A stretch of DNA of 64,000 bases from Pelagomonas calceolata (lineage: Eukaryota > Sar > Pelagophyceae > Pelagomonadales > Pelagomonadaceae). Position numbers and translations under genes: made by a program. Below the pieces are notes generated by a model. That model was given only the letters and a program-made list of their open reading frames with translations. It was not told the origin of the DNA and ran no database searches. The DNA is taken from NCBI GenBank assembly GCA_918797485.1, contig CAKKNE010000001.1, forward strand, positions 2,976,001 to 3,040,000. Direction: 5' to 3'. This document shows, piece after piece, positions 52,853-57,622 of the stretch. Each line of letters begins with the position of its first letter. Positions within the stretch are counted from its first letter, which is position 1.

Positions 52853-55366
52853 TTAGTCCGAGTCCCGCATCGCGTCGTCGTCGTCCCCCGAGTCGTCGTC
52901 GAAGCCCCGATCCGAGTTGTCGTCGGCGAGGTCCCCCGCGTCCGCGACGCCCGTACTCGTGATCGCCAGCGGCGCCCGCATCTCCTCGGACGGCGACGAC
53001 CCCATGAGCGCCACGGACCGCCGGCCCTGGACGTGCTGCGCCACGCGGAAGGTCCGCCCGCAGAACGCGTACAATTGTTCCATTGCCGGGCGGTACGCGC
53101 CCTGCCGCGCGCCATCACTAAAGTCGTGGGAAATTTCGTTCACCAGGACCACGGCCACGTTCAGGGCGCGCGCGAGCTCCTTCGCTGCCGCCAGGATGCG
53201 CCGCAGGGCCGCGTTGCGGTCGTGCCGCGGCAAATCCTTGCACACGGCCGCCGCGCTGTCGACGACGACCAGGCTCACGCCCCGCTTCCGCGCGAGCCAC
53301 TGGGCGTCGTTGTCCAATGCCAGGGCCATCTGCTCCGAGTTGAGGAAGCTGGCGACGACAGTTCGTCCCGCGGCGTCGTCCTTGTCGACGCCGAGCGTCA
53401 CGGCGATGTTACAAATATGGGTGGCCGTGTGCCGGGATCGCGCCGCCGTGGCGCAGAGGTAGACCACGGCCTCCCGCTTTCGTCGTAACAAGGCGCGCGC
53501 CGCTAAGGTAGCGCACAACCAAGACTTCCCAGAACCAGCGGGGCCGTAGACGTGCGAGAGGCACGCGGCGCCGAGCGCGGCACCTAAAGCCGCGTCGACG
53601 ACCTTGGCCTCCTCCGACGACCTAAATATACCGAGCGGCGCTTCCTCCGTGGCCGGAGGCGGCGCCTCCTGGCGCCGCCGCTTCGCGTCGCGAATCGCCA
53701 GCGCGGCGGCCCTATTGGCCTCGACGCGCGCCTTCACCTCGTCCTCGGGTTGAACAGTACGTTCCGGCGGCGGCACGGCCACGAACTTGGACGGGTCCTC
53801 GACACTTTGCAACACGTAGTCGAACTGTAAGACAATAATAACTTTTGTGCCATTGATATCATTGACCAACCACTGCACGAGCCGTAATAAAGCATTGGGC
53901 CGGCAGCACCGCAACTTCTCCGTCAAATCGCCCTTGCAGTGCGCGGCCATGGCGTCATTACCACCGTCGCCGAGCTCCAAGCGCACGCGCGGCCCGAGCG
54001 GCGTGCTCCGCACCTCCTTCTTCCTCACTTTAAGCACGGGCGCGACCACGCCGCCGGGGTCCTTGCGGATCCGCGCTATCAACCCCGCCTCGGGCTGGGC
54101 CGAGCAGGGCCGCGTCCACGTCGGGATTTTATGTTGGTCGGGCGCGTCGTCGCGGGCCCACAAGGCGGCGTGCCTCTCCAGTTCGCGGGCCAGTTTGGCC
54201 TCGTCGACGGGCTTGCCCCCGACGCGCTCGCAGATCTTCGCGAGCGCGGGCACGTTTTGGGTGGAGAGGTCGAAGGGGACGGGCGGCGGTTTTGGCTGAG
54301 GTTCGTTGTCCGGCAGGATGGGCCTATGGATAATCTCCGGCGGCTCGTCGTCGTCGTCGTCGTCGTCGCCGATGCCGTCGAAGCGGCTGTAGTCGATGCC
54401 CGTCGACGCCGCGGGCGCTGGCGCGGCAGGCGTCGGAGCGGCGGCGGCCTCGGCCTCCATCGGCGCCGGTGGCGGCCGCGCGGGCGCTTGCGCCGTCGAC
54501 GCCGGCGCGGGCGCGGGCACCGGCGGCGGCGGCCGCGCGGGCGGCGCCGGTGGCGCCGCCGCCGCCGCCGCCTTGAGCCGCGCGTTCTCGGCCTCGAGGC
54601 GGGCGATCTTGGCGGCCGCGGCCGCGGCCGCCGCGTCGGCGGCCGGCGCCGGCGCCGGCGCGCGCGGCGCCGGCGGCCGCGCTGCCGCGGGCGCCGGCGC
54701 CGCCGGCGTCACGCGGCCGGGCCGGGGCCGCGTCGCCGCCTCGATGTCAAAGTCAGCCAGCGCCGCGTCGAGCGAGCTCGGCCGCGGCGCCGGCCGCGGC
54801 GGCCCGCGCGGCGCCGGCCGCGCGGGCGGCGGTGGTCGTGCCGGCTGCGTCGCCGGTGCGTCCTCGAGGAAGACGTGCGGCCGGAGGATCGGCGCGGCGA
54901 CGGCCTTGGGCGTCGTCCGCGGGATCTGGAATTTTTTCTTCGGCTTCTGGATGGTCGTCGGCCGCGGCGCGGCCGGCCGCGCCGTGGCCGTGGCGGGCGG
55001 CCCGTCGTCGCCGGCGAAGGGGTCGAAGGACCGGGGCGTCGGCACGCCGCGCGTCGACGCCGTCGCGGGCGTCCGGTACGCGGGCCGCCGCCCGGGCCTC
55101 GGCGTTTTTGTCGAGGGGGCCGCCGGCGCGTCGTCGTCGGCGAAGGGGTCGAACGCCGCTTTCGGGGCCTTCCGAGCGGTCGCCGCGGGCGCCGCTTTGG
55201 GCCGCACGGGCCGCCGCGCGCCGGCCGTCTGGAACAATGCGCCGCCTGTTGGCTTCGGTGCCGGCGCGGCGTCGTCCGCGAAGGGGTCGAACGGCGCGGC
55301 GGACGGCCTCACGGCCTTCTTGCTGCCGGCTGTAACGAAGCCCGTGAATGCCGCTTCATCGGCCAT
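52853..55366 (-). CDS. RAD51-like ATPase fused to RPA70N-like OB fold, with FxTA motifs
   Basis: 837 residues from the ATG at 55366. N terminus: GFVTAGSKKAV (F10-A13) and LFQTAGARRPV (F45-A48) look like the FxTA core of BRCA2 BRC repeats; each is followed by FDPFADD (26-32, 72-78), with a third FDPFAGDD at 114-121. Then come a Pro/Ala-rich linker and a short coiled coil (about 243-266). Residues about 425-520 (LKVRKKEVRSTPLGPRVRLE, LGDGGNDAMAAH, LRLVQWLVNDINGTKVIIVL) resemble the N-terminal OB fold of RPA70. Residues about 590-800 are a RecA/RAD51-paralogue ATPase: VYGPAGSGKSWL (Walker A), VSLVVVDSAAAV (Walker B), AVVLVNEISHDF. An acidic tail ends it. Homologous-recombination role inferred. 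Confidence 0.75.
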   Translation of the reverse strand: MADEAAFTGFVTAGSKKAVRPSAAPFDPFADDAAPAPKPTGGALFQTAGARRPVRPKAAPAATARKAPKAAFDPFADDDAPAAPSTKTPRPGRRPAYRTPATASTRGVPTPRSFDPFAGDDGPPATATARPAAPRPTTIQKPKKKFQIPRTTPKAVAAPILRPHVFLEDAPATQPARPPPPARPAPRGPPRPAPRPSSLDAALADFDIEAATRPRPGRVTPAAPAPAAARPPAPRAPAPAPAADAAAAAAAAKIARLEAENARLKAAAAAAPPAPPARPPPPVPAPAPASTAQAPARPPPAPMEAEAAAAPTPAAPAPAASTGIDYSRFDGIGDDDDDDDEPPEIIHRPILPDNEPQPKPPPVPFDLSTQNVPALAKICERVGGKPVDEAKLARELERHAALWARDDAPDQHKIPTWTRPCSAQPEAGLIARIRKDPGGVVAPVLKVRKKEVRSTPLGPRVRLELGDGGNDAMAAHCKGDLTEKLRCCRPNALLRLVQWLVNDINGTKVIIVLQFDYVLQSVEDPSKFVAVPPPERTVQPEDEVKARVEANRAAALAIRDAKRRRQEAPPPATEEAPLGIFRSSEEAKVVDAALGAALGAACLSHVYGPAGSGKSWLCATLAARALLRRKREAVVYLCATAARSRHTATHICNIAVTLGVDKDDAAGRTVVASFLNSEQMALALDNDAQWLARKRGVSLVVVDSAAAVCKDLPRHDRNAALRRILAAAKELARALNVAVVLVNEISHDFSDGARQGAYRPAMEQLYAFCGRTFRVAQHVQGRRSVALMGSSPSEEMRAPLAITSTGVADAGDLADDNSDRGFDDDSGDDDDAMRDSD

Positions 55367-55711: not shown

Positions 55712-57622
55712 ATGGCTGACCAGCAAGGCAGCACACTGAGCGGCAATGCGGCGGCATTCGTGCCAACCGCAGCCGTCCCGCCCGTGCTGACGCCTCTACC
55801 GCCACCGCCAGCGCCGGCAACAACGAAAGGGCGCGGGCGCGGTCGTGAACGGGGCCGCGGTCGAGGTCGAGGTCGTGGACGAGGCCGCAGCCGGAGCGCT
55901 GGCAAGGGCCGCGGCCACAGGAGCGCAGCCGAAGCGACCCTCGTGGAGATGGGCTACGCGCCGGCCGCCGCGCGGCGCGCGCTGGAGGCCACGGGTTCCG
56001 TGGAGGCGGCCATTTCGGCGCTGGACCCGGGCTACTGCGCCGCCGTGGACACGCAACAAGCTCGCGGCAACGCGAACCACCTGCTGCGCTTCACGACGGA
56101 ACGGCCCCAGCAACAACCACCGCCGCGGCGGCGCGCGCCCGCGAAGCCGCGGAGCGCGCACCGGCCGCGGGGCATCGCCTTCGAGGCGCCCGCGATACGG
56201 TTATTAGTAGCCGCGGGCGTCGCGTCACCGTTCGCCTGCGACGCCGACGAGGCGCCGCCCTGGGAGAGCGTCGTCGCGGCGGATGTTGTTGGAGACGCGA
56301 TCCGCTGCCCCATCTGCCTCGAGGACGAAGCTAGAGCGCCGGTCGTCACGCGCTGCGGCCACGGTTTTTGCGCGGCCTGCGTCGTGCGCCACTGTACGTC
56401 TGATTACGTCCGCAGCCGGAAGTGCCCGTGCTGCGCCGCGCCGCTTTCAGTAAAGGACCTGCGGCCCGCGTTTTTGAGAAAGCCGGCGGCGGACCTCGTT
56501 TTACTAGAACGGCCGAAGAGTGGTAGAAGGGCGTGCCTCGCGGATCGCGTCACGGGCCGCCTGCCGGCGTCGGACGACCGCTGCGACCTCCTCGCAAAAA
56601 TCACGGAGGCGACGCCCGCCGCTGTCCAAGCCGCGCAACAAAGCTTCCGCGCGGCCCTGGCGGACGCATCCCTGAAAGCCGACGACGAGGCCGAGCGCCG
56701 CGCCGTCGCGGCGGCCGCGGCGTACTTAGATGTCGAACCGGTGTCTAGTAACGAGCCATCAATGGAAGAGCCAACGGAGGCCAAGACGTACCGCTTCTAC
56801 GGGCGGAAGGATGGAAGTCTAGTCTTCCTGCACCCGCTCCACCTCAAATTACTAATAGCGGCGGTCGGCGGCATCGAACACTTGCCCGAGGCGCTGCCGG
56901 AATTGCGCGTGGCGCACGCCGAGCGCTTCGAGCAGTCGCCGGCGACGCGCAAGCGCTTCCCCTGGCTCGCGCACGTGCCTATTGGTAGTGACGTGACTTT
57001 GTTAGATGCGCGCGGCGACGGCGGCTTCGGTTCTGAGTTCACGGAGCGGTGCCGCGCAGCGCGAGAACAAGACCCCTCTCTTAGGGACGCCCTCGCCGCG
57101 CGGGCCAAAACTATCAAACGGGACCAGGAGCAATCGAGACGCGCCGAGCGCCGCCACGCCCATAACGTCGAGAAGCGCCTCGCCGAGAAGGCCCCGCCAA
57201 AAGCAGCGCCCTACATCCAGCAAGAGGGCGACTTCGCGCCCGTCGAGCCGGAAATAACCGAGGAACTTCAGGCGCGGGCCGAGGCGGCGCTCGGCGCGGC
57301 GCCGGCGGCCATGTCCTTCGCGAACACCGTGGCGCGGAACTTCGCGGCGCCGGAGGGCGCCTTCCCGGAGCTCTCGGCGAGTCCCCCGGCCGCGCCGGTC
57401 GCGGCAGCCCCGGCGCCGTCGTGGGGCGGTCGCGCCGTGACAAGAGGCGACCAGCTAGATCGCGCGCGCTTCGCGGCGCCACCGCGGGCGCCCGTCGCGC
57501 CGCCGGCGACGACATGGGGCGACCGCAGCGGTGCGGCTGTCGCCGCGGCGCCGCCGCCAAAACCAAAGGGCAAGCCGGTGAAGAAGACGCTCTCGCTGAC
57601 GGGCGGCGGCCGGCGCTACTAG
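55712..57622 (+). CDS. RNF10: RNF10-like RING E3 ubiquitin ligase with UBA domain
   Basis: 636 residues. An RG-rich N terminus (about 40-70) is followed by a UBA domain (about 74-107, ATLVEMGYAPAAARRALEAT). The RING finger is at about 198-241 (CPICLEDEARAPVVTRCGHG, FCAACVVRHC, CPCC). After it, YRFYGRKDGSLVFLHPLHLK and FPWLAHVPIGSDVTLLD are the RNF10/Mag2-specific block, so this is not a generic RING protein. RNF10 ubiquitinates ribosomal proteins uS3 and uS5 on stalled 40S subunits in animals and yeast. The UBA could add ubiquitin-chain reading. The C terminus is Ala/Pro-rich and ends in KKTLSLTGGGRRY. All zinc ligands are present. Confidence 0.88.
   Translation: MADQQGSTLSGNAAAFVPTAAVPPVLTPLPPPPAPATTKGRGRGRERGRGRGRGRGRGRSRSAGKGRGHRSAAEATLVEMGYAPAAARRALEATGSVEAAISALDPGYCAAVDTQQARGNANHLLRFTTERPQQQPPPRRRAPAKPRSAHRPRGIAFEAPAIRLLVAAGVASPFACDADEAPPWESVVAADVVGDAIRCPICLEDEARAPVVTRCGHGFCAACVVRHCTSDYVRSRKCPCCAAPLSVKDLRPAFLRKPAADLVLLERPKSGRRACLADRVTGRLPASDDRCDLLAKITEATPAAVQAAQQSFRAALADASLKADDEAERRAVAAAAAYLDVEPVSSNEPSMEEPTEAKTYRFYGRKDGSLVFLHPLHLKLLIAAVGGIEHLPEALPELRVAHAERFEQSPATRKRFPWLAHVPIGSDVTLLDARGDGGFGSEFTERCRAAREQDPSLRDALAARAKTIKRDQEQSRRAERRHAHNVEKRLAEKAPPKAAPYIQQEGDFAPVEPEITEELQARAEAALGAAPAAMSFANTVARNFAAPEGAFPELSASPPAAPVAAAPAPSWGGRAVTRGDQLDRARFAAPPRAPVAPPATTWGDRSGAAVAAAPPPKPKGKPVKKTLSLTGGGRRY

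Follow-up and report, generated by a model that had tools for sequence, protein, structure and literature searches.

Human SWSAP1, a protein of 229 amino acids, contains one FxxA motif and is not known to have an RPA70N domain. The RPA70N domain is normally part of RPA, the protector of single-stranded DNA, and is chiefly a protein-binding domain rather than RPA's main domain for binding single-stranded DNA. SWSAP1 is a RAD51 paralogue that has SWS1 as its partner and carries its own FxxA motif, a variant of the BRC motif (PMC6440994). Engineered fusions of BRC to RPA70 are active in HR (PMC3240595). Therefore the statement of a preliminary description of the DNA studied here, that the FxTA motifs of BRCA2, the OB fold of RPA and the core of the RAD51 paralogues reside on separate proteins in known systems, is partly wrong. 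A limited literature search found no description of a RAD51 paralogue with an FxxA motif combined with RPA70N.

The locus lies in a stretch of 64,000 nucleotides from the marine picoalga Pelagomonas calceolata, referred to as the window, and encodes a protein of 837 amino acids on the minus strand. At the level of sequence the order of its parts was borne out: a disordered N terminus bearing FxTA motifs is followed by an RPA70N-like OB domain and this by a RAD51-like core. The protein is best explained as a divergent RAD51 paralogue whose chain also carries an RPA70N-type OB domain and, in a disordered N terminus, two FxTA motifs that would bind RAD51, a reading to which we give a probability of about 0.5. 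Like SWSAP1, it has a RAD51-paralogue fold and an N-terminal FxxA motif on one chain, and an action on RAD51 filaments, as exerted by SWSAP1, is proposed for it. It departs from SWSAP1 in the number of FxTA motifs, two, which sit in an extended disordered N terminus, and in the RPA70N-like OB domain that precedes the core. Since human SWSAP1 already unites the paralogue core with FxxA, what is new is confined to the RPA70N fusion and the repetition of FxTA.

A RAD51-family core of the paralogue type

The family of the core is established by Pfam Rad51 (PF08423), which scores 50.3 bits over residues 587-810 (52937-53608, minus strand) with a cut-off of 22, the remaining Pfam matches of the core being generic ATPases. 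In a search of PDB sequences the best match was yeast Rad51 (E about 1e-9); among the human paralogues RAD51D was the best (E 5e-7), RAD51B was weaker and XRCC3 marginal. Walker A (GPAGSGKS, residues 608-615, 53522-53545) and Walker B (SLVVVD, residues 698-703, 53258-53275) are both intact, as had been described, and the core can probably bind ATP. The name ATPase, also given to it, stands less firmly. The segment VYLCATAARS (residues 635-644, 53435-53464) occupies the position of the RAD51 DTEGTF segment, which aligns to CATAARS, and the position of the catalytic Glu163 of human RAD51 is taken by Thr, so that ATPase activity is doubtful. In the same alignment human RAD51D is also devoid of the catalytic Glu; hence the Thr speaks against recombinase activity and not against paralogue status. 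Neither the L1 nor the L2 region of RAD51 is recognisable in the core, and no RAD51-type N-terminal domain and no DNA-binding domain were recognised in the protein. The core reads as one of the paralogue type, not as a recombinase. With the classical paralogues (RAD51B, RAD51C, RAD51D, XRCC2 and XRCC3) it shares a RecA core with Walker A and B and similarity at the paralogue level, but it differs from them in the OB domain placed before the core, in the missing RAD51-type N-terminal domain, in the Thr at the catalytic Glu, and in a long branch that groups with none of them.

A divergent RPA70N-like OB domain

The putative OB domain spans residues 427-519 approximately (53810-54088, minus strand). 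For Pfam Rep-A_N the score is 18.7 bits with the full-length protein (E=0.0017) and 22.4 bits with the excised region (E=1.3e-4), still below the curated cut-off of 26.7. When the genome (32,445,274 bases in 8 contigs) was searched with the OB stretch, the sole non-self match was the N-terminal part of this alga's RPA1, with 33% identity (E=0.0017). The comparison of the stretch by hhalign with three RPA70N sequences gave a probability of 95.5%, and an HMM built from three RPA70N sequences gave E=6e-6 for the frame of the 837-residue protein, whereas the other 716 frames of the window and 5000 shuffles all stayed at or below 8.5 bits. These tests agree, but they share one and the same sequence. 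Searched by itself, the OB region matched no PDB sequence, and AlphaFold run without an alignment yielded pLDDT values of 37.5 (residues 396-837) and 44.4 (residues 427-542), too low to interpret. The resemblance to RPA70N proposed earlier is supported at the level of sequence, with a score that remains under the Pfam cut-off.

In human RPA70N the arginines R31, R41, R43 and R91 are important in ligand binding, and the motifs bound span about 20 residues and have a mixed acidic and hydrophobic character (PMC10479964). Two of these four groove arginines, R41 and R43, are kept in the OB domain, while R31 is replaced by Glu and R91 by Thr, as read by eye from the alignments. The domain hence resembles RPA70N of RPA in the similarity across its length and in the R41/R43 pair of the basic groove, and differs from it in being located outside RPA1, in the loss of R31 and R91, and in its score. 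That a divergent RPA70N domain is joined to a RAD51-like core appears well supported on sequence grounds.

A second frame outside RPA1, from C2:4545589 onward, has a clear RPA70N domain (62 bits) followed by at least 480 in-frame residues that are A/L-rich, probably helical and without a Pfam match. It may be that this alga has used RPA70N repeatedly as a module for fusions; alternatively, the frame may read through an intron.

FxTA and FDPFA motifs of the N terminus

All the N-terminal motifs lie on the minus strand. The first FxTA unit, FVTAGSKKAVRP (residues 10-21, 55304-55339), preceded immediately by FTG, was found by pattern search and by a BRC HMM, and an FDPFADD motif follows it (residues 26-35, 55262-55291). 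The second unit, FQTAGARRPVRP (residues 45-56, 55199-55234), was found by pattern search and by comparison with BRC, and is followed by FDPFADDD (residues 72-81, 55124-55153). The FxxA modules themselves are FVTA (10-13) and FQTA (45-48). A third motif, FDPFAGDD, placed by residue position at 114-121 (55004-55027), has no FxTA before it. The repeat described previously holds for two FxTAG units, each with FDPFADD after it; FDPFA itself begins at residues 26, 72 and 114, once more often than FxTAG. The pattern FxTAGx[KR][KR]xV has 2 matches in the 32-Mb genome, both in this protein; the backwards control pattern has 3. FDPFA[DE][DE] has 2 matches in the protein and 1 elsewhere (C4:211195-211214), the latter probably due to chance; it sits in a UvrD/FBH1-like helicase frame. 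The canonical BRC pattern FxTAxGK matches 9 times elsewhere in the genome versus 6 times for its backwards control, and the matches inspected in context were chance occurrences or other proteins, such as a disulfide-isomerase-like protein.

The likeness to BRC repeats extends to one half of the repeat. The Pfam BRCA2 repeat (PF00634) has no match to the protein at E<=10. An HMM made from the eight human repeats matches residues 4-17 only, with 4.0 bits, a score reached by 0 of 2000 shuffles, and the alignment stops at residue 17 without a match to the C-terminal half of BRC, comprising the helix and LFDE. No LFDE module is present at BRC spacing: FDPF lies 16 and 27 residues past the Phe of FxTA versus about 21-22 in human BRC4, the human and BRC reference sequences having served as yardsticks only. 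The claim that FxTA and FDPFADD are spaced like FxTA and LFDE of BRC is not borne out. Because just the FxTA half was found, "BRC repeats" would be too strong a name, and "BRC-like FxTA motifs" seems a fair one; FxTA, being a short motif, could also be accidental. In the organism's RAD51 the FxxA pocket is nearly human, with A190V and M210L among its positions, and the LFDE pocket is altered (Y205K, S208C and M251A). A kept FxxA pocket together with a changed LFDE pocket would fit docking by FxTA alone. With the BRC repeats of BRCA2, with C. elegans BRC-2 and with the engineered BRC-RPA70 fusions the protein has in common FxTA and an RPA-type OB fold on one chain; it differs from them in having the FxTA half only, in that its OB is of the RPA70N type, chiefly a protein-binding domain and not RPA's main ssDNA-binding one, and in a RAD51-like core in addition.

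Alternatively, the protein would still be a divergent RAD51 paralogue and have the RPA70N-like domain, but FxTA and FDPFA would not bind RAD51. They would then belong to a fast-evolving disordered tail, with FDPFAxDD serving another use, for example as an acidic-aromatic ligand of RPA70N, its own or that of RPA, or as a DPF-type adaptor-binding motif. The missing half of BRC, the silence of the Pfam BRC model, and the unequal number and spacing of FDPFA and FxTA are in line with it, as are the size and mixed character of the known RPA70N ligands (PMC10479964) and the best 15-residue self-match in the A/P-rich tail, which was equalled by 1 of 200 shuffles. However, the pattern common to both FxTA units occurs nowhere else in the genome, and the first unit stands in a BRC-like context, FTGFVTAGSKK. 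We regard this alternative as possible, though rather unlikely.

Placement among the recombination proteins of the alga

The genome search located RAD51 itself at C6:794924, and best-match assignment placed RAD51B at C6:514331, RAD51C at C1:756505, XRCC2 at C1:4523893 and RAD51D at C6:2386970 (34% identity across residues 27-277 of human RAD51D). The human XRCC3 query matched RAD51 and these paralogues in the genome but not the 837-residue protein, and no XRCC3 was found in the genome search, which intron-split genes can escape. In the tree the branch leading to the protein is 1.8 substitutions per site long. The protein lacks a firm placement: it falls weakly near RAD51D (77.8/53) and groups with no named paralogue. 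Its identification as a missing RAD51D was dropped in view of the better RAD51D at C6:2386970. As RAD51B, RAD51C, XRCC2 and RAD51D have genes of their own, the protein is an additional, unplaced RAD51 paralogue. The match at C6:794924 is the only one of RAD51/DMC1 grade in the genome, in a search that intron-split genes can escape; the genome paper of P. calceolata names both RAD51 and DMC1 (PMC9481584). The whole protein, the core, the organism's RPA1 and the RPA70N alignment gave no matches against viral contigs, nor did the whole protein against prokaryote genomes; both sets contain no eukaryotes and are therefore silent on conservation.

A BRCA2-like gene is located at C4:1655676-1657727 (OB1, 62 bits; helical domain, 38 bits). 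No plausible FxTA/BRC motif was seen in it or in the 4.2 kb upstream; exons that escaped notice are possible. A candidate for SWS1/ZSWIM7 lies at C4:2364893-2365156, in a 178-aa frame with CTC...CKHMLA (E=1.6e-5), and suggests a Shu-type complex. The 837-residue protein could then hold the position of SWSAP1 as partner of SWS1, the RPA70N domain being a lineage addition. SWSAP1 is indeed a RAD51 paralogue that requires its N-terminal FxxA motif for RAD51 binding (PMC6440994), the genome has the SWS1 candidate, and it yielded no further unassigned paralogue. The core, nevertheless, resembles a full RAD51-type core, with yeast Rad51 and human RAD51D as best matches, and SWIM domains exist in other proteins as well; we hold this assignment to be distinctly unlikely.

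Integrity of the open frame

The open frame at 52853-55366 is real, and its strand, left unnamed in the preliminary description, is the minus strand: it runs unbroken from the ATG at 55366 to 52853 with 837 codons plus the stop, inside a stop-free stretch of 918 codons, whereas the plus strand of the same interval has stops. A coding-type pattern of GC by codon position extends over most of its length, both ends included. The A/P-rich linker (residues 131-380, 54227-54976, minus strand), probably disordered by its composition, has weak codon periodicity; it holds a short stretch, charged and heptad-like, KIARLEAENARLK (253-265), and an internal Met at residue 303. As the OB domain and the core are about 65 residues apart in the same frame with no stop between them, and some 250 A/P-rich residues with weak periodicity and Met 303 separate the N terminus from the OB domain, the former join is the firmer of the two. 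An artefact of the gene model, in which the N-terminal motif region, the OB domain and the RecA core would not be one translated protein owing to different splicing or to separate genes bridged by an open frame, is very improbable: GC-rich DNA is rich in long open frames (a 538-aa frame lies on the opposite strand) and the linker has the features just named, but 918 codons without a stop, the proximity of OB and core and the coding-type pattern at both ends argue against it. A gene for a UBA and RING-finger protein (window 55712-57622, plus strand) is head-to-head with this one across a gap of 345 bp, and the two possibly share a promoter region.

Proposed mechanism and significance

Taken as a divergent RAD51 paralogue fused to an RPA70N-type OB domain, the protein would most likely act as an accessory factor or mediator. 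The binding events and the mediator function, all of which we infer, could proceed as follows. On RAD51 the FxTA motifs would occupy the pocket that accepts the BRC repeats and also the polymerisation motif of RAD51 itself. Through its OB domain the protein would bind acidic-hydrophobic peptides of the kind of the RPA70N ligands, creating a tether to RPA-associated repair partners; alternatively, and this is a guess, this domain would fold back onto the FDPFAxDD motifs, which are acidic, in the same polypeptide. The RecA core, which would bind ATP but probably hardly hydrolyse it, might pack with RAD51 or another paralogue and in this way start or stabilise filaments. In a bolder version the protein is a mediator of RAD51 that occurs naturally as a single chain: BRC-type capture of RAD51 would have passed from BRCA2, which in this alga apparently lacks FxTA, to an RPA70N-fused RAD51 paralogue, and the FDPFAxDD motifs of that paralogue might regulate it; this we consider speculative and of low probability. 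A self-contained mediator in the strict sense, as envisaged initially, is unlikely because no DNA-binding domain was recognised, the catalytic Glu is missing, and this genome contains further HR genes, among them the BRCA2-like one.

If the reading is true, one natural protein of an abundant marine alga would unite RAD51 capture, a tether to the RPA pathway and a core of the RecA type. The RAD51-loading role of BRCA2 would become testable as a portable module, and the protein would be a natural counterpart of the engineered BRC-RPA fusions.
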